Shown: positions 9,587 to 37,540 of the stretch, piece by piece
Position numbering within the stretch: position 1 is the stretch's first letter
Layout of the letters: each line of letters starts with the position of its first letter
Assembly (NCBI RefSeq): GCF_001646865.1
Contig: NZ_LRRB01000081.1
Location: 21,008-85,007, forward strand
Source: Aldersonia kunmingensis
Lineage (GTDB): Bacteria > Actinomycetota > Actinomycetes > Mycobacteriales > Mycobacteriaceae
Direction: 5' to 3'
Length of the DNA stretch: 64,000 nt
Position numbers and translations under genes: made by a program
Notes under the pieces: generated by a model
Told to the model about the DNA's origin: nothing
The model's database searches: none
Seen by the model: the letters and a program-made list of their open reading frames with translations, nothing else

Positions 9587-10480
9587 TCAGCGCTCGCCGC
9601 GGGCGTCGGACCGGCCGTGCAGCACCGCTGCGCCACTCGCACGTGCAACGAGCGCGTCGAAAGCGTCCAGATCGGTCGTGCACGCGCCGAGCGCCTGTTC
9701 CTTGTGATCGCCGTGGTAATCCGACGAACCGGTGACGATCAGGCCGAGCCTGCGAGCCAGCCCATTCAGCAGCACCCGCTCGTCCTCGGGGTGGTCGGGA
9801 TGGTCGACTTCGAGACCGCCCAGACCGCGCTCGGCGAGCTCCTCGATGTGGTCGATCGCCAGCAACCGACCACGCATCCGCGCCCGTGCGTGGGCGATCA
9901 CGCTGACGCCACCCGCCGCCGCGATCATTGCGACCGCTTCGTCGATCGGGGCGTCCTGCTTGTTGACGAAGTACTTGCTCTTGCGTGAGAGCAGCTCCTC
10001 GAACGCCTCGGAGACCGAATCGACAACGCCGGCCTCGACCAGCGCCGCCGCCAGGTGCGGTCGGCCCGCCGAGGTGCCCACCCGTGCGAGCACCTCTTCC
10101 GGATCGATCGGGTAGTCGGCGGCGATATTGATGGCCATCGCCCGCAACCGGGAGACCCGTTCCTCGCGCTGCCGAATGCGCTCGGCGGCGAAGGTGGAAT
10201 CGGCGGGGTCGAACAGATAGGCCAGCAGATGCACCGGTACCGGGTCGCCGTCTTCGCCGCGACCCTCGCACGACATCTCCATCCCCCGGACCAAACGGAA
10301 GCTGGTGGGGGCGTCGTCGAGGGCGGCTTGGGCCTCGGCCCAGCCCGCAGTGGTGTCGTGGTCGGTTATGGCGACGACGTCGAGCCCGGAAGACACCGCT
10401 TTGGCGACCAGTTCCGCCGGAGTGTCCGTCCCGTCCGAAGCGTCCGAATGGGTGTGGAGATCGATGCGCACGACCTCCAT
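9587..10480 (-). CDS. PHP-domain metal-dependent phosphoesterase
   Basis: A 297-residue protein with the PHP-family metal ligands in order: DLHTHSDASDG at 6-16, ITDHDT near 36, a conserved Glu in RGMEMSCE, HARARM and SSDYHG near the C-terminus. It belongs to the YciV/RnaAM-like group acting on 3',5'-bisphosphate nucleotides or short oligonucleotide ends (known for family members, not proved here). I chose the ATG at 10480, immediately upstream of the catalytic domain; longer starts would overlap the divergent corA. It is divergent from corA. Confidence 0.87.
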   Translation of the reverse strand: MEVVRIDLHTHSDASDGTDTPAELVAKAVSSGLDVVAITDHDTTAGWAEAQAALDDAPTSFRLVRGMEMSCEGRGEDGDPVPVHLLAYLFDPADSTFAAERIRQREERVSRLRAMAINIAADYPIDPEEVLARVGTSAGRPHLAAALVEAGVVDSVSEAFEELLSRKSKYFVNKQDAPIDEAVAMIAAAGGVSVIAHARARMRGRLLAIDHIEELAERGLGGLEVDHPDHPEDERVLLNGLARRLGLIVTGSSDYHGDHKEQALGACTTDLDAFDALVARASGAAVLHGRSDARGER

Positions 10481-10533
10481 CCTGTCAGTCTTTCGACACC
10501 GATTGCCCTGCGTGCCGGGCGTACGATGCGCTC

Positions 10534-11610
10534 GTGCCGTCGATTCCCGCACTTCCATCGATCCGCGGACAGGCTCGCGTAGCGGGCGCGCCGCCGCGTA
10601 TCCGCGTGCCCGCGTCCGAGGCAATCGTCGACTGCGCGGTGTATCGCGGTGGGCACCGCCTGCGCGGGAAGTTCAGTCATTCCGCAGCGCTCGAGGAAGT
10701 GCGCGAACAAGGCACCGGATTCGCCTGGGTCGGCCTGCATGAGCCGGACGAGGGCCAGATGGCGGCGATCGCGGAAACCTACGGCCTGCACGAACTCGCC
10801 GTCGAGGACGCGGTGCACGCCCATCAGCGGCCCAAACTCGAGCGCTACGACGACCTGCTATTCGTCGTGCTGCGCACAGTGAAGTACGTCGAGCACGACT
10901 TGCGCATCCCCAGCGAGATCGTCGAAACCGGCGAAATCATGATCTTCATGGGTCCCGATTTTGTGGTGACCGTCCGCCACGGCGACCACACCCACCTCAG
11001 CGGGGTCCGCAAGGACCTCGAGGCCAATCCCGAGCAGCTCGAATTCGGCCCGTCGGCGGTGCTGCACGCTATCGCCGACCACGTCGTGGACTCGTATCTC
11101 GGCGCCGCGAACGCCCTCGAGCAGGACGTCGACGAGATGGAGGAAGCGGTTTTCAGTCCCGGCGGCGACGTCCCTATCGACGGGCTCTACCAGCTCAAGC
11201 GCGAGATCGTGGAGCTGCGGCGGTCGGTGAAACCGCTCGCGACGCCGCTCCAATCGCTCTCCCGCGGTGCCGCAGGGTCGATTCCCAAGGAAGTGCGCCG
11301 CTACCTGCGCGACGTCAGCGACCACCACGCCACCGTGTCCGAACGCATCACCGAATTCGACGAGACGATCAGCGCGCTGGTCGATACCGCGAGTGCGAAG
11401 ATCGCGATACGGCAGAGCACCGATATGCGCAAGATCTCGGCGTGGGTCGCGATCGCCGCGGTGCCGACCATGATCGCGGGCATCTACGGGATGAACTTCG
11501 ACAATATGCCCGAACTGCACTGGACCTACGGCTACCCACTCGTGGTCGGGTTCGTGGCGCTCGTGTGCGGTGGCCTGTTCTTCACCTTCCGCCGCAATCA
11601 CTGGCTGTAG
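10534..11610 (+). CDS. corA: Magnesium/cobalt channel CorA
   Basis: A 358-residue CorA protein: a long cytoplasmic domain with alpha-helical willow region, then two C-terminal transmembrane helices with the selectivity motif YGMNF between them (about residue 325) and a basic C-terminal end. Length matches the mycobacterial homologue (about 366). It starts at GTG 10534. It mediates Mg2+ (or Co2+) uptake across the inner membrane. An MgtE-like gene lies 2.3 kb downstream, as in the M. tuberculosis order. Confidence 0.95.
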   Translation: MPSIPALPSIRGQARVAGAPPRIRVPASEAIVDCAVYRGGHRLRGKFSHSAALEEVREQGTGFAWVGLHEPDEGQMAAIAETYGLHELAVEDAVHAHQRPKLERYDDLLFVVLRTVKYVEHDLRIPSEIVETGEIMIFMGPDFVVTVRHGDHTHLSGVRKDLEANPEQLEFGPSAVLHAIADHVVDSYLGAANALEQDVDEMEEAVFSPGGDVPIDGLYQLKREIVELRRSVKPLATPLQSLSRGAAGSIPKEVRRYLRDVSDHHATVSERITEFDETISALVDTASAKIAIRQSTDMRKISAWVAIAAVPTMIAGIYGMNFDNMPELHWTYGYPLVVGFVALVCGGLFFTFRRNHWL

Positions 11611-11632
11611 CCGTCCCGCGCGCGCTGCTTCA

Positions 11633-11692
11633 CGGGTGCAGATTGTGTTCCCGAGTGCGAAATTTCGGCCCCGGAAACAAGTTTTGCACCCG
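11633..11692. repeat. Intergenic palindromic repeat, copy A
   Basis: Outer arms CGGGTGCA (11633-11640) and TGCACCCG (11685-11692) flank an imperfectly paired interior containing GTGCGAAATTTCGGCCCC and a GGAAACAAG segment. The interior and right arm match copy B near 41.7 kb almost base for base. It lies between the convergent corA and SUFU-domain genes and may also serve as a terminator. Confidence 0.6.
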
Positions 11693-11717
11693 GTTAGGTG
11701 CGGACGGACCTGACCAC

Positions 11718-12302
11718 CTAGAGGGTGGCGGCGGACCGACCCGGATCGCGCGGGTCGATCCCGGCCTCGCGCCAGGCTTCGCGCAGTGCCTCCGCGCCCT
11801 TCAGCCGGATCCAGGCGGCCTCGGTGCCGGTGATCGGTGCGCCCTCGAAGAACTGGACCGGATCGGCGGGGGGATCGAGCGGCAGATCCGACACCTCCGA
11901 GGCACCGAGGAGGATCGCCGTGAACGGCGAACCGTGCCAGAGCGGTTCGCCCAGGTCCATCAGTCGGTCCACGCCGAGCACGACACCCTCCACCGCCGGC
12001 GCCGCGGCGAGCACCGCCAGGCTGCGGTGGATCCCCGACGCGGTACCGGCACCACCACGCAGGCGCACCAACACCTCGGCGCGCGGCCCGCGCACCGGGT
12101 CGGCGACAAGGTCGTTGGGGTCGGTCATCGGGTATCGGGAGCAGCCGAGCGTCGCGTAGGTCACCAGATCGTCGGTGTCCGGGCCGAAGCGCAGGACCTG
12201 CAGCGGTTCGAGCCCAACGAAGGTCACCGACGCCGCCGATGGGTTGTCATCGCCAAGCGCCGCGCACAGGTGCGCGCGCACGGAACTCACCACATCGGAC
12301 AC
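11718..12302 (-). CDS. Suppressor-of-fused (SUFU) domain protein
   Basis: A 194-residue soluble protein made up almost wholly of a bacterial SUFU domain: VLRFGPDTDDLVTYATLGCSRYPM (about 36-59), the ELLVRLRGG-like strand, and the C-terminal KGAEALREAWREAGIDPRDPGR. Bacterial SUFU proteins are often linked to toxin immunity or have no known role; here no toxin gene is adjacent, so a housekeeping role is more likely. It is convergent with corA. Confidence 0.75.
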   Translation of the reverse strand: MSDVVSSVRAHLCAALGDDNPSAASVTFVGLEPLQVLRFGPDTDDLVTYATLGCSRYPMTDPNDLVADPVRGPRAEVLVRLRGGAGTASGIHRSLAVLAAAPAVEGVVLGVDRLMDLGEPLWHGSPFTAILLGASEVSDLPLDPPADPVQFFEGAPITGTEAAWIRLKGAEALREAWREAGIDPRDPGRSAATL

Positions 12303-22202: not shown

Positions 22203-24287
22203 GTGACCGTCGCCTTCGACGCACCACCCTCACGGCCCAATCCGGTTCGGGAAGTCGCCGCCGGACTCGCGGTGTTCGGCTTCTATCTGGTCGTCGATTT
22301 TCTCGGCGGCCCCGACCGCCAAGCGACGGCTGACCACAATGCCGAGCAGCTGATCGATCTCGAGCGCTGGCTGCACATCGACAACGAGCGCGCGCTCAAC
22401 GACTGGCTGCATCCGCACGAGACACTCACCACCCTGGCGAACTACGAGTACGCCATCACCTACGTCATCAGCGCGTTCGCGCTGCTGGGCTGGCTGTACT
22501 GGCGCGACCCGATCGACTATCGCCGGGCGCGCAGTTCGTTCATCGTGCTCAACCTGCTCGCCATCACGTGCTTCGCGTTCTATCCCGTCACCCCACCCCG
22601 GCTGCTGCCCGAACTCGGCTACACCGACACGGTCCTGCAGGGCGGCACTATCGGCTCGTGGGGTACGCCGCTGGTGGGCAACGCCAATCAGTTGGCGGCG
22701 ATGCCGTCGCTGCATATCGCATGGGCCTTGTGGGTCAGCGTTGTGCTCGCCCGCCTCGCCCGCGGACGGTTCGTGCAGGGCGTCAGCGGCATACACGTCG
22801 CTGTCACCCTGTTCGTCATCATCGCGACGGCGAACCACTACTGGGTGGACGCGCTCGCCGCGGTGCCCTTCATCTGTGTCAGCGTCGTGGTGGTGGACTG
22901 GCATCGCACCCGCACCACCCGCGCCAAAGTGCCCGCCTCCGACGCATTCTTCCTCCATGTCGAGAGCGATCAGGCGCCGCAGCACGTCGGCGGCATGGTC
23001 GTCCTGGATACGTCCGCCCCTGGAGTGCCGAGCCTCGACGAGGTTCGTGCGCTCATCCACGACGAACTCGGGAACCTGCCCCGGTTCCGGCAGCGCATCG
23101 TGCCGCCCACCAGGTGGCGCCGGGCGCGCTGGGTCGACACGGACCACGTCGACTGGGAGTGGCATGTGTGCGAACGCATCGCGCGCCCGCCCGACGGCGT
23201 GACGGACGGCGGTGTCGACGCCGCAGCGGCGGCGCAGAGTCTCGCCATCGCCGATCTCGCCGCCGAGCGGCTGCCGCTCGACCGGCCGCCGTGGCGGATG
23301 GTGCTGATCCGCGAGATCACTCCCGGCCGAACCGGCCTAGCGTTCCTGGTGCACCACAGCGTGGCCGACGGGATCGGCACCGTCGTGCAGGCGCTCAACC
23401 TGCTTCGCCCGCGCTACGACTTGCCGGAGTCCGACCGGCCGCCGCTGAGCCGCACACGCAAGGCGGCGGCAATCGGCGCTGGTCTCGCGCAGCTCGCCAC
23501 GGATGGCTCTCCGGCGGATCGGCTGCAAATAGCCTCTCCAGCAAGAGAATTCGCAACCGCCCGACTGCCGATGTCGATGGCCCGTGCCGTTGCGCACGCG
23601 AACGGCGCCCGAGTGACCGATCTCGTGCTCGCGCTCGTTGCCACCGCGATCGTGCGGACGAATCCCCATTTCGCCTTGGCCGCCGGCGGGCGCCTACGGG
23701 TATCGGTGCCGATCATGCTGCGCGAACCGGGTGCCGCCGCCGAGGGCAATGTGACCGCGGCCGTCATGATCGATGTGCCGCTCGGCGACCTAAGCACCGC
23801 TGAACGATTGGCGGAGATTCGCAGCCGCAGCGACCGGTTGCGCACACCGACGCGGGCGCTCGCGTCGCGCTTCGTGATGAGTTCGGCACTCGGCCTGTTC
23901 CCTGTTCCCGCGCAACGCTGGTTCGCGCGAACCGTCTACGGCCCGGCCATCTTCCAGTCGATCGTGTCGAATATGCCGGGTCCGGACGTCCAGATGAGCT
24001 TCTGCGATGTCCCGATCGAATACGTGGTGCCGATCCTGCCGTTGGCCCCCGGCGTCCCCGTCGCCGTCGGGGCACTGAGCTGGAACGGCTACCTCGGTCT
24101 CGGCATCGCCACCGATCCCGCAGGGGTGCATGCGCGCCCGTTGGCCGACGAAATCGCCCGCGCGCTGGACGAACTCGCCGCCGGGCACCCCGTGGTGCCC
24201 GCTCAGTCCTCCTCGGCGCTGCCCCACTCGAGTGCAAGCAACATCTGGGCGCGTGCCCGCGGCGAATCGAGCGCCCCTCCGAAGTAG
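22203..24287 (+). CDS. Fused PAP2 phosphatase and WS/DGAT acyltransferase
   Basis: A 694-residue two-domain protein. Residues 15-235 are a PAP2-type membrane domain with about six helices, PSLH at 168-171 and NHYWVD at 211-216 (catalytic His and Asp). Residues 243-690 are a complete wax-ester synthase/diacylglycerol acyltransferase domain with the catalytic HHSVADG at 384-390 and a conserved SNMPGP near the C-terminus. It could dephosphorylate phosphatidic acid and acylate the resulting diacylglycerol, joining the last two steps of triacylglycerol synthesis (inference). Its last 85 bases overlap the convergent PucR-type gene. Such bifunctional proteins are known in actinobacteria. Confidence 0.88.
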   Translation: MTVAFDAPPSRPNPVREVAAGLAVFGFYLVVDFLGGPDRQATADHNAEQLIDLERWLHIDNERALNDWLHPHETLTTLANYEYAITYVISAFALLGWLYWRDPIDYRRARSSFIVLNLLAITCFAFYPVTPPRLLPELGYTDTVLQGGTIGSWGTPLVGNANQLAAMPSLHIAWALWVSVVLARLARGRFVQGVSGIHVAVTLFVIIATANHYWVDALAAVPFICVSVVVVDWHRTRTTRAKVPASDAFFLHVESDQAPQHVGGMVVLDTSAPGVPSLDEVRALIHDELGNLPRFRQRIVPPTRWRRARWVDTDHVDWEWHVCERIARPPDGVTDGGVDAAAAAQSLAIADLAAERLPLDRPPWRMVLIREITPGRTGLAFLVHHSVADGIGTVVQALNLLRPRYDLPESDRPPLSRTRKAAAIGAGLAQLATDGSPADRLQIASPAREFATARLPMSMARAVAHANGARVTDLVLALVATAIVRTNPHFALAAGGRLRVSVPIMLREPGAAAEGNVTAAVMIDVPLGDLSTAERLAEIRSRSDRLRTPTRALASRFVMSSALGLFPVPAQRWFARTVYGPAIFQSIVSNMPGPDVQMSFCDVPIEYVVPILPLAPGVPVAVGALSWNGYLGLGIATDPAGVHARPLADEIARALDELAAGHPVVPAQSSSALPHSSASNIWARARGESSAPPK

Positions 24288-25557: not shown

Positions 25558-26439
25558 ATGATCAACATGTGCGCGATGCACTTCGCATCGGAATCGGATT
25601 CGATGCACGCCAAAGAGAGCGCGGAGAATTTTCCGGTCGCCCTCCGGTTGTTGCCCGCCGGTATTCGCAATGATCTGCACGCGCTCTATTCGGTCGCCCG
25701 AACCATCGATGATCTCGGTGACGAGGCGCCCGGAAATCGGGTCGCCGCACTCACCGAGTTCCGCGACGACATGCGCCTCATCTGGGCCGGCGAGACACCC
25801 TTCAACCCGGTGCTCCGCGCACTCGTGCCGACCGTCCGGGCACACAATCTCCACCCAGAACCGTTCGAGCGACTGGTCGAGGCCAACCTCGTCGATCAGC
25901 GCGTCACCCGCTACGGGACCTACGAGGATCTGATCGGGTACTGCCATTTCTCCGCCGACCCGATCGGCCACCTGGTGCTGGCGGTCTTTGACGCGGCCTC
26001 CCCCGCACGCATCGAGCTGTCGGATCGGGTCTGCCGCGCGCTGCAACTGCTCGAGCACTGGCAGGACGTGGCCGAGGACCGCGCCGCCGGACGGGTGTAT
26101 CTCCCGCTCGAGGACCTCGAACGATTCGACGTCGCGGAGTCCGAATTGGACCGGCCGTTCGCGAGCGCGGCCCTGCGCCAGCTGATGCGTTTCGAAATCG
26201 AGCGGGCTGCCGCGCTATTGGAGTCCGGCGCTGCACTGGTCGGGCACCTGCGCGGCTGGGCAAGGGTCGCCGTCGCCGGCTATGTGGCCGGCGGCCGGGC
26301 CACCGCGCACGCGTTGCGCCGTTCGAACGGTGATGTGCTCGCCGCCAAAACCAGCCCCAGCCGGGGCCGCACTGCCGCGAGCGCGGCCCGACTGTTGATC
26401 GCACCACCGCGATCGAAGAGTGAAAGGGGCGGTGTTTGA
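25558..26439 (+). CDS. hpnC: Squalene synthase-like HpnC
   Basis: A 293-residue trans-isoprenyl diphosphate synthase-like protein, first gene of the hopanoid operon. HpnC converts presqualene diphosphate to hydroxysqualene. It has [11 protein letters not shown] near residue 22, the first Asp-rich site [11 protein letters not shown] (about 46-56) and the second in [29 protein letters not shown] 25558 has a GGCGGGA ribosome site; later ATGs at codons 5, 7 and 16 are possible. The stop overlaps the next gene's TTG. Confidence 0.92.
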
Positions 26440-27302
26440 CCACACTCGACGACGCCTACTCGGCGTGCGCACACATCACCCGCACCGAGGCGAAGAACTT
26501 CTACTACGGAATCCGCCTGCTACCAGCGCCGAAACGCTCGGCGCTGTGTGCCGTGTACGCCCTTGCCCGGCGCATCGACGATATTGGCGACGGCGACCTG
26601 CCCACCGCACAGAAGGTCGCCGAACTGGCCAAGATCCGCAAGTTGCTCGAAGAAATCGACAGCGCCGGCGATCCGGTGTTGCTGGCCGTTGCCGACGCGG
26701 CACGCCGATTCCCGGTGCCGCTCGGTGCCTTCGAGGAATTGATCGACGGCGTGCAGATGGATCTCGACGCGGTTCACTACGCCGATTTCCCCGCGCTCGT
26801 GGTCTATTGCCGTCGCGTGGCCGGCTCGGTTGGCCGGTTGTGCCTGTCCATCTTCGGTACCGAGGAAGGACACATCGACCCACGCACCTCGACGTACGCC
26901 GATCAACTCGGCATCGCGCTGCAGCAGACCAACATCCTGCGCGACGTGCGTGAGGACCTGCTGAACGGGCGGATCTATCTGCCCCAGGACGATCTCGACC
27001 GGTTCGGGGTGGTGTTGCGGGTCGACGAATCCGGCGAACTCGCCGACCCCGAGGCCCGGCTTGCGGCCCTGCTGCGGGATTCCGCGGCCCGCGCCGAGGA
27101 CTGGTACGCGCTGGGGATGCGCCTTGTGCCGTACCTCGATCGGCGCAGCGCCGCGTGTTGCCTGGCCATGGCCGGTATCTACCGGCACTTGCTCAACCGG
27201 ATCGAGGAGGACCCCACGAGCATCTACCGCTCACGCATGTCGTTGTCGGGCGGAGAAAAGGCGCGGGTCGCGGCCGCGGCGCTGCTGAGGGCGGCGCGAT
27301 GA
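26436..27302 (+). CDS. hpnD: Presqualene diphosphate synthase HpnD
   Basis: A 288-residue protein that condenses two farnesyl diphosphates to presqualene diphosphate. It has [10 protein letters not shown] near residue 21, the first Asp-rich motif [11 protein letters not shown] (about 43-53), and the second [25 protein letters not shown] (about 165-190). The TTG at 26436 overlaps the HpnC stop. The stop itself overlaps the next ATG. Sequence similarity to HpnC reflects an old duplication. Confidence 0.93.
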
Positions 27303-28660
27303 CAATAGCTCGGGGGGCGCGCTCGCATGAGCATCGCGTTGCTGTCATCGGCGGCGGACTTGCCGGCATCACCGCTGCGCTGGACTGCGCCGACGCAGGT
27401 TCGGCCGTAACGCTTTTCGAATCGCGTTCATTCCTAGGCGGACTCACGTTCTCCTTCCGCCGAGGCGATCTCTGGGTGGACAACGGGCAGCACGTCTTCC
27501 TGCGCTGTTGCACGAGCTACCTTGCGCTGCTCGAACGGCTCGGGGTCACCGACAAGACGGTGTTGCAACCGCGCCTGGACATACCGGTGCGTAGTCCGGC
27601 CACCGCGGGTCGGCTGCACCGCAACGGTTTTCCTGCCCCGCTGCATCTCTCCGGCTCGCTGCTTCGCTATCCGTGGCTGTCGCACGCCGAGCGGGTACGG
27701 TTCGCCCGCGCGGCGCTTGCCCTGAAGAACGTCAATCGCGCCGACCCACGCACGGACGAGCAGAGCTTCGGCGACTGGCTGCGCGCGCACCGACAGAGCG
27801 AGCGCGCTATTGCGACGCTGTGGGATCTGGTCGGAATAGCGACGCTCAATGCGCGGGCTGACGATGCCTCACTGTCTCTGGCGGCGACCGTCTTTCAAAT
27901 CGGCATGCTCAACGCCAACTCGACGGGCGACATCGGCTGGGCCAGCGTGCCATTGCAGGAGCTGCACGGCGATGCCGCGATGACCGCGCTCGACCGGGCC
28001 GGTGCACGGGTCCGGCTGCGCGCCAAGGTAACCGGGCTGCGGGCCAGCGGTGCCGGCTGGACGGTTACGACGGACTGCGGCGCGGATGGCTTCGATGCCG
28101 TCGTCCTCGCCGTCCCACCCTCGGTCGCCGAACAACTCGCGCCTGCGGCGCTGCGGCCGGGACTGGCGGACGAACTCGGCAGCGCGCCGATCGTGAATGT
28201 GCATGTGGTGGTGGACCGTCAGGTGCTCGACGCGCCGTTCCTCGCCGGCGTGGACAGCCCGGTGCAGTGGGTTTTCGACCGCACCGAACAGTCCGGTCTC
28301 ACACGCGGACAGTATCTGGCGATCTCGCTCTCCGCCGCCGACGACGTCATCGACGTGCCGACGGCCGACCTACGGGACCGGTTCCTCCCCGCACTACGAG
28401 ACCTGCTGCCGCGGTTGCGTGAGGCCAACGAAATGGACTTCTTCGTCACACGCGAGCGCGCCGCCACGTTCCGCCCGGTGCCCGGTAGTGCCCATCATCG
28501 GCCCGGACCGGTGACCGCGAGCCATGGTCTGTTTCTCGCCGGCGCATGGACCGACACCGGCTGGCCCGCAACGATGGAGGGTGCGGTGCGCAGCGGCGCC
28601 GCCGCGGCCTCCGCCGTCCTCGACAGTTCCCGAATCCGGGCAACGAAGGAGGTTGCGTGA
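27299..28660 (+). CDS. hpnE: Hydroxysqualene dehydroxylase HpnE
   Basis: A 453-residue FAD amine-oxidase-type protein that completes squalene synthesis by reducing hydroxysqualene. It has the dinucleotide motif VIGGGLAG (about 15-22), [26 protein letters not shown] (about 60-71) and a C-terminal [22 protein letters not shown] flavin-binding segment. ATG 27299 overlaps the HpnD stop; a longer in-frame start at 27155 lies deep in hpnD and is rejected. Confidence 0.93.
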
Positions 28661-29676
28661 CCGCAACACTGAATGGACTGGGCTACGGTCGGGACCTCAT
28701 CGATGCGGCGCTGCGCAACGCGGTAGCCCGGCTCGACCCGGACACCGGGCTAGTCGTCTCATACCACCTCGGCTGGTGCGATCCGCAGGGCAATCCGCTG
28801 ACCGGTAACGGCGGCAAGGCAATTCGGCCCATCATGACGTTGCTCGCTGCCCGTGCCTGCGGGGCCGCCGACACCGCCGCACTGCCCGGTGCGGTCGCCG
28901 TTGAGCTGGTGCACAACTTCTCACTGGTGCACGACGACCTGATGGACCGCGACCGCGAACGCCGCCATCGCGCGACGGTGTGGGCGGTGTGGGGTGACGC
29001 GACCGCGGTCCTGGCCGGGGACATGATGCTGTCGCTCGCGCATGACGTCCTGCTCGAGAGCGACTCACCGCACGCGGCACCAGCGGGCAGAGTGATCGCC
29101 GCCGCGACGCGCGATCTCATCCGCGGGCAGGCCCAAGACATTGCGTTCGAGCGGCGCAACGACGTTGGCCTACAGGAGTGCCTCGACATGGCGTTCGGCA
29201 AGACGGGCGCACTACTCGGGGCGAGCTCGGCGGTGGGCGCGGTCCTGGCAGGAGCGGACGAGCCGACGGTCGCAGCGATGTCGGATTACGGCCGCCACGT
29301 TGGGCTGGCATTCCAACTCGTCGACGATGTGCTCGGCATCTGGGGCGAGCCCGAGATCACGGGAAAGCCGGTCTATTCCGATCTGCGTTCACACAAGAAG
29401 TCGTTGCCGATCACGTGGACGCTGGAACAAGACGACACAACGGCGAGTGAGCTACGCGAATGGCTTGCAGCCGAACCGGATTCGATGGTGACCGAGTCCG
29501 AACTCCGCTCTGTCGCCACACTGATCGACCACAGCGGTGCGCGCGACTGGACACTCGCCGAGGCCCGCCGCCGCGTCGAACTCGCCCAGCGCGCCCTGGA
29601 CAGCATCGACCTGCTCACCACGCCCCGCGCAGCGCTGTGCGATCTCGCGCAATACATCGTCGACCGGGAGGCATGA
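28657..29676 (+). CDS. Polyprenyl diphosphate synthase in hopanoid operon
   Basis: A 339-residue trans-prenyltransferase. The first Asp-rich motif is DDLMD (93-97); the second is DDVLG (223-227), with Gly in place of the usual last Asp, a common variant. The segment GGKAIRP (52-58) replaces GGKR(L)RP. It should chain isopentenyl diphosphate onto an allylic primer, most usefully giving farnesyl diphosphate for HpnD. GTG 28657 has an ideal AAGGAGG site four bases upstream and overlaps the HpnE stop. Homologues occupy the same position in Streptomyces hopanoid clusters. Confidence 0.9.
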   Translation: MTATLNGLGYGRDLIDAALRNAVARLDPDTGLVVSYHLGWCDPQGNPLTGNGGKAIRPIMTLLAARACGAADTAALPGAVAVELVHNFSLVHDDLMDRDRERRHRATVWAVWGDATAVLAGDMMLSLAHDVLLESDSPHAAPAGRVIAAATRDLIRGQAQDIAFERRNDVGLQECLDMAFGKTGALLGASSAVGAVLAGADEPTVAAMSDYGRHVGLAFQLVDDVLGIWGEPEITGKPVYSDLRSHKKSLPITWTLEQDDTTASELREWLAAEPDSMVTESELRSVATLIDHSGARDWTLAEARRRVELAQRALDSIDLLTTPRAALCDLAQYIVDREA

Positions 29677-31647
29677 ATGACGCAGACCGCCGATCGCACC
29701 GACACCTCCGCTTCGGCTGCACAGGTCTCGCTCGATGCCAACGCGCGGGCCGCGCTCGACACCGCGGTAGGACTGCTCCGCTCGCAGCAGCACGAGAACG
29801 GTTGGTGGAAGGGCGCGCTCGACACGAATGTCACGATGGATGCCGAGGACCTGCTGATGCGCGCGTTCCTCGGTATCTCCTCCCCCGAGGTCACAATTCC
29901 CGCGGCGCGCTGGATTCGGTCCCAGCAGCGCGCGGACGGCACCTGGGCCACCTTCCACCATGGGCCCGGCGACCTGTCCACCACGATCGAGGCGTGGGTG
30001 GCGCTGCGGCTGGCCGGTGACGAGCCCGACGACCCGCATATGCAGGCGGCGGCCGAGTTCGTGCGGGCTCAGGGCGGTATCGAGGCAAGCCGGGTGTTCA
30101 CCCGAATCTGGTTGGCGCTGTTCGGCCTCTGGTCCTGGGACGACTGCCCGAATATGCCGCCCGAGATCATGTTCCTGCCGTCCTGGGCACCGTTGAATAT
30201 CTACGACTGGGGCTGCTGGGCGCGCCAGACCATCGTCCCGCTCACCATCGTCGGCACGCTGCGTCCGGTCCGGCCGTTGCGCACCGCCACTGGTGACCCG
30301 ATCGGTATCGACGAATTACATACTGGGGCAATCTCTCCTGAGCCGCGACTGTTCTCGGCGAAGGGTGCGTTCGCCCGGCTCGACTCCGTGCTGCACACCT
30401 ACGCCCGCCGTCCGATCGGGCCGGTCCGCCGGCTCGCGATGCGGCAGGCCACCGAATGGATCCTGGCCCGCCAGGAGGCCGACGGCGGCTGGGGCGGCAT
30501 CCAGCCGCCATGGGTGTACTCGCTCCTCGCCCTGAACCTGATGGGCTACCCGATCGACCACCCGGCGATGAAGGCCGGACTCGACGGCCTCGACACCTTC
30601 GTGCTGCACGGACAGACCCCGGAGGGACCCACCCGGCGGCTGGAAGCCTGCCAGTCGCCGGTGTGGGACACCGCCCTCGCGCTCGCGGCCCTGCTGGATG
30701 CCGGTGCGCCATCGGATGATCCGGCCGTACTGCGCGCCGCGAACTGGCTGCTCGACGAGCAGGTCACCGGTGCGGGCGGCGACTGGCAGGTGCGCCGGCC
30801 CGATCTCCCGCTCGGCGGTTGGGCATTCGAGTTCGCCAACGACAACTACCCCGACACCGACGACTCCGCGGAGATCATCCTGAGCCTGCGCCGGGTCGCG
30901 CACCCGGAACCCGGCAGGCTCACCGACGCGCTGGACCGCGCGGTGGAGTGGACCGCGGGTATGCAGTCGCGTGACGGCGGCTGGGGCGCGTTCGATGCCG
31001 ACAACACAAGCACCGTGCCGACCATGCTGCCGTTCTGCGATTTCGGCGCGGTGATCGATCCGCCCTCGGCCGACGTCACCGCCCACGTCGTGGAGATGCT
31101 CGCCCGCGAAGGCGATCGACATACCGAGCGGGTACAGCGCGGGGTGCGCTGGCTGCTCGACAATCAAGAGCCGGACGGTTCGTGGTTCGGCCGGTGGGGG
31201 GCCAACTACATCTACGGGACCGGCGCGGCGGTGCCCGCGCTCATCGAGGCAGGCGTTGATCCTGGATCGTCGGCCATCCGATCGGCGGTGCGCTGGCTGA
31301 CCGAACACCAGAATCCTGATGGCGGCTGGGGCGAGGATCTGCGCTCGTATCGCGACCGGGACAAATGGGCGGGTCGCGGCGAGTCGACGCCCTCGCAGAC
31401 CGGCTGGGCACTGATCGCACTGCTCGCTGCGGGCTGCGGGTCGGCGGCGTTCCGCACCGACAGCGACTCATCCGCGGTGCGGGCCGGCGTCGAGTACCTG
31501 GTTGTGACGCAACGTATCGATGGCGGCTGGGACGAGGACTATTTCACCGGCACCGGATTTCCCGGTGACTTCTACATCAACTACCACATGTATCGGCTGG
31601 TCTTTCCGATCTGGGCGCTCGGCCGATACCTGAGGGGCCGACCATGA
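29677..31647 (+). CDS. shc: Squalene-hopene cyclase
   Basis: A 656-residue class II triterpene cyclase that turns squalene into hopene/hopanol at the membrane. The acid motif is DTDDSA at 393-398 (consensus DxDDTA). Several QW repeats are visible (for example QQRADGTW near 84, QEADGGWGG near 266, QSRDGGWGAF near 431, QEPDGSWFGRWG near 491, QNPDGGWGED near 548). Length is usual for the family. It starts with the ATG right after the synthase stop. Confidence 0.96.
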   Translation: MTQTADRTDTSASAAQVSLDANARAALDTAVGLLRSQQHENGWWKGALDTNVTMDAEDLLMRAFLGISSPEVTIPAARWIRSQQRADGTWATFHHGPGDLSTTIEAWVALRLAGDEPDDPHMQAAAEFVRAQGGIEASRVFTRIWLALFGLWSWDDCPNMPPEIMFLPSWAPLNIYDWGCWARQTIVPLTIVGTLRPVRPLRTATGDPIGIDELHTGAISPEPRLFSAKGAFARLDSVLHTYARRPIGPVRRLAMRQATEWILARQEADGGWGGIQPPWVYSLLALNLMGYPIDHPAMKAGLDGLDTFVLHGQTPEGPTRRLEACQSPVWDTALALAALLDAGAPSDDPAVLRAANWLLDEQVTGAGGDWQVRRPDLPLGGWAFEFANDNYPDTDDSAEIILSLRRVAHPEPGRLTDALDRAVEWTAGMQSRDGGWGAFDADNTSTVPTMLPFCDFGAVIDPPSADVTAHVVEMLAREGDRHTERVQRGVRWLLDNQEPDGSWFGRWGANYIYGTGAAVPALIEAGVDPGSSAIRSAVRWLTEHQNPDGGWGEDLRSYRDRDKWAGRGESTPSQTGWALIALLAAGCGSAAFRTDSDSSAVRAGVEYLVVTQRIDGGWDEDYFTGTGFPGDFYINYHMYRLVFPIWALGRYLRGRP

Positions 31648-33119
31648 CGGCCCACACGCCGGCCACGGTCTGCACCCCGCTACGCAGCGAATACGCGGCG
31701 CTGCGCGGCAGGGTCGCGGTGCCGGTGCACAGGACCGGCCGCGGGCCAGAACGGCCACTGCCCGCGGCCGGCCCGGTGCTTATCGCCGGGGTAGCCGGTG
31801 CGCTGGACACCAACCTGCGTCCCGGCGATGTCATCGTCGCCAGCGAATTGCGCACCCCGACGAGCACTCTCACCAGCCCGGCGGCAGTGCTGCTCGCGAA
31901 CGAACTGCGCCGACTCGGACTGCCCACCCATTTCGGCCCACTGCTCTCGACGGATCGGGTGGTGGACGGAAAGGCGCGCACCGCAGCAGCCGCAACCGGC
32001 GCCCTCGCTGTCGACACCGAGTCCGCCTTCCTCGCCGCGCAGGCACCGCCCGGTCAGGCCGTCGCGCTGCGCACCATCGTGGACACACCCGTTGCCCCGC
32101 TGTTGCGGCCGGGAACCCCATGGCGCGGGTACTCCGCGCTGCGGGCGCTGCGGACTGCGGCACCGGCGATCGATGCCTGGGCCGCGGCCACCGGCGCGCG
32201 CGAACTGCTGTTGGCCGGTCCGCGCTCGTTCTGCGCCGGGGTGGAACGAGCCGTCGAGATCGTCGAGCGCGCGCTGGCCCAGTACTCGGTGCCGGTCTAT
32301 GTGCGACGACAGATCGTGCACAACCGCCACGTCATCGACGACCTGCGCAGCCGGGGTGCGGTCTTCGTCGAAGAGGTCGAGCAGATTCCGGAGGGCTCGG
32401 TCGCGGTCCTCGCCGCGCACGGCGTGGCGCCTGCCGTGCGCCGCGCGGCCGCGGCACGTTCACTGCGCGTCATAGATGCGACGTGCCCGCTGGTTGCGAA
32501 GGTGCACTCCGAGGTGCGCCGCTTCGCTGCAAAAGGCAACACCGTGCTGTTGATCGGCCACGACGACCACGAGGAAGTTGTCGGCACCCGCGGCGAGGCA
32601 CAGGACAACGTGATTGTTGTGCCCGATCCGGCTGCCGCGGAGCAGGTTTCGGTACCCGATCCCGAGAGGGTTTCCTACGTCATGCAGACCACCCTGGCCG
32701 TGGACGAGGCTGAGGGGATCGCCGCAGTGCTGCGCGAGCGGTTCCCCGCGGTGGAGCGGCCGGCCAGCGACGACATCTGCTACGCCACCACCAACCGGCA
32801 GCGGGCCGTCCGCGTCGTCGCGGAACAGTCCGATCTCGTCCTGGTGGTCGGCTCGCAGAACTCGTCGAACTCGCACCGGCTCGCCGAGGTCGCCGGCCGG
32901 ACCGGAATCCCCGCACACCTGATCGACGATGCGTCCGAAGTCGAGCTGTCCTGGCTCGCCAGTGCTCGTCGAGTCGGGATCACCGCCGGGGCCTCCGCGC
33001 CACCGCAATTGGTCAGCGAGCTCATCACGTGCCTGTCCGGGCTCGGCACCACCACGACTCGTGAAGTCACCGTCGTCAACGAGGACATCCAATTCACACT
33101 CCCGAGAGAGGTGAGCTGA
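31644..33119 (+). CDS. HpnG-like phosphorylase fused to IspH
   Basis: A 491-residue fusion. Residues 1-165 resemble the hopanoid-associated phosphorylase HpnG (nucleoside phosphorylase fold: GVAGALDTNLRPGDVIVAS at 49-67 and AVDTESAFLA at 122-131, where the ribose-binding Glu is kept). Residues 185-485 are a complete 4-hydroxy-3-methylbut-2-enyl diphosphate reductase: Fe-S cysteines 197, 281 and 379, substrate histidines 226, 259 and 309, and Glu311. HpnG removes adenine from adenosylhopane; IspH makes IPP and DMAPP. The HpnG part is shorter than stand-alone forms, so activity is not certain. It overlaps the cyclase stop. Confidence 0.88.
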   Translation: MTAHTPATVCTPLRSEYAALRGRVAVPVHRTGRGPERPLPAAGPVLIAGVAGALDTNLRPGDVIVASELRTPTSTLTSPAAVLLANELRRLGLPTHFGPLLSTDRVVDGKARTAAAATGALAVDTESAFLAAQAPPGQAVALRTIVDTPVAPLLRPGTPWRGYSALRALRTAAPAIDAWAAATGARELLLAGPRSFCAGVERAVEIVERALAQYSVPVYVRRQIVHNRHVIDDLRSRGAVFVEEVEQIPEGSVAVLAAHGVAPAVRRAAAARSLRVIDATCPLVAKVHSEVRRFAAKGNTVLLIGHDDHEEVVGTRGEAQDNVIVVPDPAAAEQVSVPDPERVSYVMQTTLAVDEAEGIAAVLRERFPAVERPASDDICYATTNRQRAVRVVAEQSDLVLVVGSQNSSNSHRLAEVAGRTGIPAHLIDDASEVELSWLASARRVGITAGASAPPQLVSELITCLSGLGTTTTREVTVVNEDIQFTLPREVS

Positions 33120-33120
33120 T

Positions 33121-34125
33121 ATGGCCATGCCCCTGCACCTGTCGCTGCGGCTCGGCGGCTACCTGTTCAAGCAGAAGCTGTTGCGCCGGGAGAAGTTCCC
33201 GATCCTCGTCGAACTCGAACCACTCTTCGCGTGCAACCTCGCCTGTGCGGGTTGCGGCAAGATCGCGCATCCCGCCGCAATTCTCAAGCAGCGCATGCCG
33301 GTCGAGCAGGCGGTGAACGCGGTGGTGGAGACCGGTGCACCGATGGTGTCGATTGCCGGCGGAGAACCGTTGATGCACAAGCAGATCGACGAGATCGTGC
33401 AGCAGCTGCTGGACAAGCACAAGATCGTCTTCCTGTGCACGAACGCGGTGCTGCTGCCCAAGCACCTGCACCGGTTCAAGCCACATCGCAACTTCGCCTG
33501 GATCGTGCATATCGATGGGCTGCGCGAGCGCCACGACGCATCGGTGTGCAAGGAGGGCGTGTTCGATCAGGCGATCGCGGCGATCAAACAGGCCCAGGCC
33601 GCCGGCTTCCGGGTGATGACCAATACGACGTTCTTCGATACGGACACCCCGCAGGACGTCATCGATGTGCTCGACTACCTCAACGACGAGCTCGGCGTCG
33701 ACAACATGCAGATCTCACCCGGGTACGCGTATGAGCGCGCACCTGATCAGGAGCACTGGCTGGGCCCCGCCCAGACCAAGGCGCTGTTCGCAAAGGCGTT
33801 CTCGGACGGCCGGCGCAAGAAGTGGCGACTCAACCACTCCCCCATATTCCTCGACTTCCTCGAGGGCAAGGTGGACCTGGACTGCACGGCCTGGGCGATT
33901 CCGTCGTACTCGATCAAGGGCTGGCAGCGGCCGTGCTACCTGCTCGACGACGGCTACGTCGAGACCTACAAGGAGCTGTTGGAGTCGACCGATTGGGACG
34001 CGTTCGGCCGCGGCAAGGATGAGCGCTGCGCGAACTGCATGGCGCACTGCGGCTACGAGCCGACCGCGGTGGTCGCCACGCTCGGGTCGCTGCGAGAGAC
34101 GATCCGCGCCGCTGTCGGCTCCTGA
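33121..34125 (+). CDS. hpnH: Adenosyl-hopene transferase HpnH (radical SAM)
   Basis: A 334-residue radical SAM enzyme that links 5'-deoxyadenosyl to hopene to start the side chain. The cluster motif CxxxCxxC is Cys38, Cys42 and Cys45. The C-terminal part is the DUF3463-type extension with a Cys-rich segment ERCANCMAHCGYEPTAVV. It is the last gene of the operon. No hpnO, hpnP or hpnN is nearby, so later tailoring must be encoded elsewhere or be absent. Confidence 0.95.
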   Translation: MAMPLHLSLRLGGYLFKQKLLRREKFPILVELEPLFACNLACAGCGKIAHPAAILKQRMPVEQAVNAVVETGAPMVSIAGGEPLMHKQIDEIVQQLLDKHKIVFLCTNAVLLPKHLHRFKPHRNFAWIVHIDGLRERHDASVCKEGVFDQAIAAIKQAQAAGFRVMTNTTFFDTDTPQDVIDVLDYLNDELGVDNMQISPGYAYERAPDQEHWLGPAQTKALFAKAFSDGRRKKWRLNHSPIFLDFLEGKVDLDCTAWAIPSYSIKGWQRPCYLLDDGYVETYKELLESTDWDAFGRGKDERCANCMAHCGYEPTAVVATLGSLRETIRAAVGS

Positions 34126-34855: not shown

Positions 34856-36758
<1,903 letters not shown>

Positions 36759-36786: not shown

Positions 36787-37476
36787 CTACGCGCTCGTTG
36801 CTCGTACTGCCGTGTCCTCGCTGTGCTCGGACAAATACTCACGTATCGCTTGTCGGCCGCGGTGGATCCGACTCCGCACAGTACCGAGCTTCACACCCAG
36901 TGTGGCACCGATCTCCTCGTAGGAGAGTCCTTCGATGTCACACAGGACGACCGCGGCGCGAAACTCCGGCGCCAGCGAGTCGAGCGCGGACTGCAGATCC
37001 GGGGCCAGACGCGCGTCGTGATAGGCCTGCTCGGGGCTCGGCCCGTCCGACGGAACCCGGTCGTAGTCCTCAGGCAGCGCCTCCATCCGGATGCGATTAC
37101 GCCGGCGGACCATGTCCAGGAACAGGTTGGTCGTAATGCGGTGCAGCCAGCCCTCGAACGTGCCGGGCTGGTAGTTCTGCAGCGACCTGAAAACCCTGAT
37201 GAAGGTGTCCTGGGTCAGGTCTTCGGCGTCTTGGGCGTTGCCGGACAGCCGGTAGGCCAGGCGGTACACACGATCTCCGTGCTCGCGCACAAGCTCTTCC
37301 CAGGATGGCATCCCAGCCTTGCCGTCGGTCGCGTCGAACGCGGCCATTCCGGACAATGGCATCACGCCATCGGGATCGATATCGCCGCCGAATTCGGCGG
37401 ACGGCACAACTTCGATCATGCCCGCACGCACAGCGTTCTCGGGCAGGTCAACGGATTCGCGCACAACATCGACCAT
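36787..37476 (-). CDS. sigE: ECF RNA polymerase sigma factor SigE
   Basis: About 229 residues from ATG 37476 (246 from ATG 37527). Region 2 contains [36 protein letters not shown] sequence and region 4 contains [29 protein letters not shown], both nearly identical to mycobacterial SigE. The start is uncertain: a predicted promoter (37541-37566) would put the transcript start only about 7 bases before ATG 37527, so the downstream ATG may be used. The mycobacterial gene is also known to use several starts. It directs envelope-stress transcription. Confidence 0.93.
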
Positions 37477-37540
37477 GTGGATGGTGCCTACCTCCTCGTC
37501 AGGATCGCGCGTCGCCTTGCAAGACATCGCATCAACAGAG

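Follow-up and report, generated by a model that had tools for sequence, protein, structure and literature searches.

An HpnG-like nucleosidase domain fused to IspH in the hopanoid operon of Aldersonia kunmingensis and other actinomycetes

Why should an enzyme of isoprenoid precursor supply share one polypeptide chain with a domain resembling a hopanoid-tailoring enzyme? The question is raised by a gene (nt 31644–33119, + strand) in a 64,000 nt stretch of Aldersonia kunmingensis (contig NZ_LRRB01000081.1, positions 21,008–85,007), referred to here as the window. A preliminary description of this DNA had proposed that the gene joins an HpnG-like domain to a complete IspH. In the hopanoid pathway HpnG acts after HpnH, and IspH stands at the far end. 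The current study finds that the fusion is real, that it is widespread in actinomycete hopanoid operons, and that it is built from known kinds of enzyme. Sequence comparison makes it quite probable that the one chain carries two separable operon enzymes, one an HpnG-type nucleosidase/phosphorylase for tailoring, the other an additional IspH that would feed precursor supply.

Two enzyme halves in one reading frame

The gene is a single open reading frame (ORF) of 491 aa, running from ATG to TGA with no internal stop, as first described. Its start overlaps the stop of the squalene-hopene cyclase gene, shc (as ATGA), and it occupies the hpnG slot, directly between shc and hpnH, which confirms its placement inside a hopanoid operon. 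The worry that a stop codon between the domains had been obscured by a sequencing slip can be set aside, because 57 of the 80 loci compared below carry both halves in one frame, with no stop where the domains join. Among these is Aldersonia sp. NBC_00410, whose protein is 87% identical to that of the window.

The C-terminal half (residues ~185–491 plus the stop codon; nt 32196–33119, + strand) is an IspH (LytB) domain. TIGR00216 matches residues 188–464 with 302.4 bits (cut-off 187.85), PF02401 scores 301.9 bits (cut-off 24.5) and PRK01045.1-4 scores 391.2 (cut-off 389), while two stricter variants of the IspH model are narrowly missed (419.2 vs 444 and 404.3 vs 420). In a phmmer search of the PDB the top match is an E. 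coli-type IspH (E 6e-95, residues 184–490). The models and the cysteine positions bear out the earlier statement that the domain is complete, with Cys197, Cys281 and Cys379. In E. coli numbering, the window protein has the three cluster cysteines together with His41, His74, His124, Glu126, Thr167, Ser225 and Asn227, which we take to be the cluster and substrate residues of the enzyme. Across the loci compared, C12, H41, H74, C96, H124, E126, T167, C197 and S225 are kept in 59/59 rows of the fused set, made up of 58 genuine fusions, the window's included, and one stand-alone ispH (L039_f1), and in 41/41 other rows; the deviations among the 59 are Ser226 to Ala in four, Asn227 to Asp in one and a gap at position 269 in one. 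The IspH domain of the window protein shares 55% identity with its host's stand-alone IspH and 50% with the E. coli enzyme. For seven pairs of intact fusions, the pairwise ratio of non-synonymous to synonymous substitution rates (dN/dS) is 0.13–0.24 in the IspH half and 0.07–0.24 in the N-terminal half. On this basis the IspH half is predicted to be active and looks fully functional.

The N-terminal half (residues ~1–184; nt 31644–32195, + strand) is more divergent. Residues 45–134 match the Pfam family PNP_UDP_1 with 26.8 bits, narrowly above the cut-off of 25.1, and residues 48–147 match HpnG (TIGR03468) with 54.3 bits, the top nucleosidase-type NCBIfam model for this protein. Nineteen such domains were aligned: 11 belong to intact fusions, 1 to an eroded one and 7 to proteins that have no IspH half. 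All 19 match both PNP_UDP_1 and TIGR03468, and of the families listed it is TIGR03468 that gives the best E-value. The residues E16, D124, E126, R143 and D147 are invariant in 19/19. A profile built from these domains finds structures of methylthioadenosine/S-adenosylhomocysteine (MTA/SAH) nucleosidases (PDB 3bl6, E 7e-13), aligning AVDtE over AVEME and vRavvD over VRAVSD, and it is with this family that sequence profiles group the domain. Glu126 and Asp147 lie inside these motifs and are presumably catalytic, as in the MTA/SAH nucleosidases; Glu16, though invariant, lies outside the stretch aligned to 3bl6. The nucleosidase-like domain reported earlier for residues 1–165 therefore holds up in kind, by its PNP_UDP_1 and HpnG matches, but not in its boundary, since it extends to about residue 184 and includes a C-terminal stretch that is present in other HpnG-like proteins. 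The domain had also been called shorter than stand-alone HpnG, which is true only after the GxGP motif, where it is ~5–10 residues shorter than several other N-domains. Besides this domain, the host genome holds no further HpnG match above 23.5 bits. It is likely, judging from these motifs and matches, that the N-terminal half removes adenine from adenosylhopane, the reaction of the HpnG family.

The operon around the fusion is tightly ordered on the + strand, and several of its joints are 4-base overlaps. It begins with the squalene synthase gene hpnC (nt 25558–26439; TIGR03464, 269.8 bits, cut-off 250.45), followed with a 4-base overlap by hpnD for presqualene diphosphate synthase (nt 26436–27302; TIGR03465, 296.4 bits, cut-off 278.6). 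Next come hpnE for hydroxysqualene dehydroxylase (nt 27299–28660; TIGR03467, 421.6 bits) and a polyprenyl diphosphate synthase gene (nt 28657–29676; PF00348, 195.2 bits). The start of hpnE is placed at the ATG overlapping the hpnD stop (the listed ORF begins at nt 27155), and that of the synthase gene at a GTG that follows AAGGAGG and overlaps the hpnE stop (listed ORF from nt 28546). The cyclase gene shc (nt 29677–31647; TIGR01507, 742.3 bits) precedes the fusion. Behind the fusion lies hpnH, encoding the radical S-adenosylmethionine (SAM) adenosyl-hopene transferase (nt 33121–34125; TIGR03470, 498.6 bits, cut-off 225.05). A Shine-Dalgarno-like sequence, GAGAGGTGA (nt 33106–33114, + strand), lies ahead of hpnH within the final codons of the fusion and may serve its translation.

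Distribution of the fusion among actinomycetes

A word-based protein search scored on the N-terminal part recovered 138 proteins. Among the best 120 of these, 90 have at least 450 residues, and all 90 carry the three IspH cysteine motifs. In the source annotations, full-length fusions, where named, are called IspH, while the short Nocardia forms are given, among the matches listed, as hypothetical, phosphorylase family or IspH proteins.

Scanning genomes with the alignment of N-domains gave 353 loci, of which the best 80 were taken. Both halves lie in one frame in 57 (in one of them, L022, the frame breaks further on, within the IspH half), one locus is eroded (Nocardia wallacei) and 22 are without an IspH half, with HpnG alone ahead of hpnH in the same type of operon. 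Within the 57 fused loci, hpnH starts no more than 100 bases from the end of the IspH match in 49, and the shc match ends no more than 1 kb before the N-domain match, again in 49. Since these 80 loci had been picked by likeness, an even draw of the class was also taken. Here, a squalene-hopene cyclase (E 1e-100 or better) was found in 33 of 148 genomes; 20 of the 33 have a fusion frame near the cyclase, with match spans from a start at residue 1–44 to an end at 490–491, and 13 have a stand-alone HpnG. Ten of these 13 belong to a single genus (g49), likely Streptomyces. Counted by genus, the fusion is present in 12/16 cyclase-bearing genera, and outside g49 it is present in 20/23 cyclase-bearing genomes. 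The N-domain was found in none of six control genomes of this draw that lack the cyclase. Within the window's own family it is rare, with 6 matches among 121 genomes drawn, of which 5, including the window, are convincing. The survey of IspH architectures called for in the preliminary description thus finds the same N-domain fusion in many actinomycete hopanoid operons.

Some loci depart from the usual arrangement. Three metagenome-assembled genomes of Thermoleophilia (L042, L063, L068) have the altered order shc, hpnC, hpnD, hpnE, fusion, hpnH, and a further one (L039) carries, besides the fusion, a stand-alone ispH (nt ~11297–12127) about 1 kb behind hpnH. In Micromonospora pattaloongensis (L074, nt ~10001–11317) the fusion is alone, with no other hopanoid protein matches within the stretches examined (L074, L174). 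In this protein the VRxxxD motif carries His in place of Asp, and Asn227 of the IspH half is replaced by Asp. Because it is isolated from hopanoid genes and altered at both positions, this copy appears to be a remnant in decay.

Loss of the IspH half in Nocardia and the second IspH copies

When 150 genomes from the same genus as N. wallacei were scanned with the N-domain, 22 matched, 20 of them inside a hopanoid operon; the other two (G281, G287) are weak, lack the operon and were excluded from the counts. The 20 operons comprise 12 intact fusions (one cut by a contig end) and 8 eroded forms. All three IspH cysteine motifs are gone from the eight, while the N-domain motifs and the matches to shc and hpnH are present. 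What remains behind the N-domain is ~100–205 changed residues in seven of them and ~14 in L151. For five pairs of eroded forms, dN/dS of the N-terminal half is 0.05–0.17 in four and 0.32 in the most distant, compared with 0.39–0.64 for the remnants, one of these remnant comparisons covering only 14 codons. The low values relative to the remnant indicate that the HpnG half is under selection without its IspH partner. As some Nocardia have dropped the IspH half yet retained the HpnG half, the halves are probably able to function independently.

The 3' end of the gene has a different fate from the rest of the IspH half. In L146–L148 a frameshift at the end of the gene alters the last residues, but GGGAGGTGAG before the hpnH start is retained, and this sequence is present in 8/8 eroded loci. 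The surviving stretch is thus likely kept as the ribosome-binding site of hpnH rather than as peptide. That the end of the fusion carries this apparent site is probably why the stretch outlives IspH.

The eroded forms bear on two other readings of the fusion. The N-terminal domain might be a regulator that binds adenosylhopane and tunes IspH, so that the end product would control precursor supply; a new regulatory role had been raised at the outset. Conservation of both halves across intact fusions, and the shortening of the domain past GxGP in the window's lineage, would suit such a role. The domain nevertheless retains the nucleosidase-type Glu/Asp residues, it fills the hpnG slot of a genome with no second HpnG match above 23.5 bits, and it is maintained by purifying selection in eight Nocardia species that have no working IspH half to regulate, all of which makes a regulator very improbable. 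Conversely, the IspH half might have no role as a reductase of 4-hydroxy-3-methylbut-2-enyl diphosphate, serving instead as a spacer or a stabiliser of HpnG, or being a disappearing leftover. It is dispensable, eroding in 8/20 Nocardia operons, its hosts own another IspH, and a match to part of its last third survives in seven of the eight eroded forms. A spacer, however, would need no cluster or substrate residues, and intact fusions keep both at low dN/dS; this reading is accordingly held to be highly unlikely.

Whether the hosts also carry another ispH had been an early question, and they do. A further IspH is present in every fusion genome counted: 44/44 in the locus set (from 50 of the 80 loci, L020 left out), 6/6 further Nocardia and 20/20 in the even draw, where the second match is without an N-domain. 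In the window's host (5.6 Mb in 330 contigs) the second IspH is a 365-residue frame on contig C14, and one IspG is found on contig C11. Where the operon lacks the IspH half, a single IspH is usual (11/13 in the even draw, 5/7 eroded Nocardia counted, and N. wallacei), as it is in operon-less Nocardia (18/20) and in cyclase-less genomes (4/6).

Within Nocardia, the IspH half accompanies a set of precursor genes borne by the operon. Downstream of hpnH, and in its orientation, 12/12 intact operons have both dxs and ispG, whereas among the eroded ones ispG is behind hpnH in 0/8 and dxs in 1/8 (G296). Outside Nocardia, the Aldersonia relative has dxs, and the window has neither gene. A phylum-wide association of the IspH half with dxs and ispG was considered and rejected, as the rule holds inside Nocardia alone. 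The operon-borne dxs (for example G019:C9:237860–238573 and the Nocardia copies) matches DXP_synthase_N in two pieces, with ~40 profile positions skipped, a feature not seen in the top dxs match of each genome. In one Nocardia whose hopanoid operon has no working IspH half (G300, L173), polyprenyl synthase, dxs, ispG and ispH genes form a cluster of their own. A more ambitious scheme, speculative and rather unlikely, is a private isoprenoid line for hopanoids in actinomycetes, comprising dxs, ispG and a special lineage of IspH fixed to HpnG and tuned by the end product, from which abandoning lineages would erode IspH and leave HpnG.

In the IspH tree (from which L022 is omitted for its broken frame) the fused IspH of the window clusters with other fused forms, apart from their hosts' housekeeping IspH. 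The tree requires four label changes between fused and stand-alone, and a test of one clade for the fused type, three nested stand-alone rows included and E. coli omitted, is not rejected (approximately unbiased test, p-AU 0.38). A single origin of the fused halves is not established, given the four changes and a test that fails to reject one clade. The three nested rows (L170, L171, L172; Amycolatopsis deserti and Saccharopolyspora elongata) adjoin polyprenyl synthase genes, with ispG also nearby in L170, dxs and ispG in L172, and neither in L171. Two of the three thus lie in small supply sets, which matches the expectation for an IspH of terpenoid supply.

The separate grouping of fused IspH, and its position directly before hpnH in 49/57 fused loci, could also point to a re-purposed domain, reducing a different compound of the hopanoid pathway or serving as an iron-sulfur electron partner of HpnH. 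The IspH and radical-SAM HpnH families both bind [4Fe-4S] clusters. Against this, the IspH substrate residues are retained, and HpnH persists without the IspH half in Nocardia and streptomycetes, so that re-purposing is extremely unlikely.

The operon tree uses the 87 of 90 rows with sufficient HpnH. Fused forms span from Acidimicrobiaceae and Thermoleophilia through to Nocardia, and IspH-less or eroded forms occur in Streptomycetaceae, Saccharopolyspora, Sphaerisporangium and Nocardia. The six changes overall would be compatible with one old gain and several losses, but fall short of proof.

Role of the fusion and related systems

If the two halves are separable operon enzymes, each would perform the reaction of its family. 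The HpnG half would act downstream of HpnH on adenosylhopane, likely removing adenine, and the IspH half would supply additional isopentenyl and dimethylallyl diphosphate for hopanoids at the opposite end of the pathway. The fusion may have arisen when hpnG and ispH, lying side by side in a hopanoid operon, merged into one frame. The gain would be joint expression or dosage from a single operon, giving hopanoid synthesis an additional precursor supply of its own. Hand-over of substrate between the halves is implausible because the two reactions share no metabolite, and both channelling and an obligate regulatory N-domain are considered unlikely. The covalent link probably reflects where the two genes happened to lie, and not a coupling that the enzymes require, because the fusion sits in the hpnG slot, the genome shows no further HpnG match above 23.5 bits, the Glu/Asp residues are kept and the N-domain persists where IspH is lost. 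The original suggestion that the fusion ties precursor supply to hopanoid output therefore survives as a tie at the level of the operon, which is the best reading, and not as a special regulatory N-domain. This tie is favoured because a functional-looking IspH half lies in a hopanoid operon of hosts that own another ispH.

Several observations weigh against the interpretation as two separable operon enzymes. The N-domain scores only 54–56 bits, compared with the curated HpnG cut-off of 187.1, although this is no bar to HpnG identity, since other proteins in the hpnG slot also score below it (Streptomyces 63.9, Saccharopolyspora 77.1 and a myxococcote 90.1 bits); the N-terminal part of a Nonomuraea fusion likewise falls within 64–90 bits, and none tested reaches the cut-off. 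Thirty-seven fused rows whose sequence extends downstream by 3 kb or more, including that of the window, have neither dxs nor ispG behind hpnH, while 15 streptomycete loci, all without the IspH half, have dxs in 9 and ispG in 8. More than one IspH is also found in 2/6 cyclase-less genomes, 2/20 operon-less Nocardia and 2/7 eroded Nocardia. The losses in Nocardia are few events, the eroded label needing two changes on the operon tree (at least one by the starred branches), and the Nocardia dN/dS pairs share sequences. Finally, many lineages have retained the fusion, so the physical link may yet bring some benefit; that 12 of the 16 genera with a cyclase in the even draw keep the fusion makes such a benefit worth looking for.

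Known systems resemble the fusion in part. The stand-alone HpnG of streptomycetes is like its N-terminal half in the slot between shc and hpnH, in the nucleosidase motifs and in its low score (that of L081 given above), but its cluster has no IspH part. Liu et al. reportedly carried out genetic work on the hopanoid genes of S. coelicolor. Two of them, orf14 and orf18, were identified in that species, according to a review (PMC10301674). Stand-alone bacterial IspH (LytB) shares with the window protein the complete domain and its cluster and substrate residues, unlike which the latter has a nucleosidase-type partner, lies in a hopanoid operon and groups with fused forms. The bifunctional IspH/ribosomal protein S1 (PRK00087) is a curated precedent for IspH fused to an unrelated protein; in that case IspH is N-terminal and the partner is S1, and the window protein reaches only 221.8 bits against a cut-off of 624. 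The MTA/SAH nucleosidase 3bl6 shares the AVxxE and VRxxxD motifs with the N-domain, which is shorter, is expected to act on a different substrate and has a hopanoid operon setting. In Acidobacteria subdivision 1, shc and hpnH cluster with a gene given as 'ispH' (also as 'ispA'); these are separate genes, and the portion of that paper available mentions no HpnG-IspH fusion (PMC5462960). The order of the hopanoid pathway is set out in PMC12583986.

No description of an HpnG-IspH fusion was found in the open-access literature, in the portions accessible, a coverage from which subscription papers are mostly absent; the available parts of PMC10663253, PMC11218510, PMC12583986, PMC5462960, PMC10301674, PMC8537080 and PMC4447401 contain none. 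The fusion is an overlooked architecture of known enzymes and not a new system. Because full-length fusions, where named, are called IspH alone, the nucleosidase half, likely the hpnG of many actinomycetes, can be missed in surveys of HpnG. It is also an unusually clean natural test of the two halves, with the Nocardia series (intact, eroding, gone) as evolution's own domain-deletion experiment. The use of separate bacterial IspH copies for general and for terpenoid supply is opened to testing, and the fusion offers a ready-made tied pair for hopanoid engineering.

Two further features flank the operon in the window. A frame of 694 residues (nt 22203–24284, + strand) joins a PAP2 phosphatase domain to both domains of a wax ester synthase/diacylglycerol acyltransferase. 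Just behind the hopanoid operon, on the opposite strand, an HtrA-type serine protease with a PDZ domain lies near a sigma-70-family factor (nt 34856–36478 and 36790–37527, both − strand).

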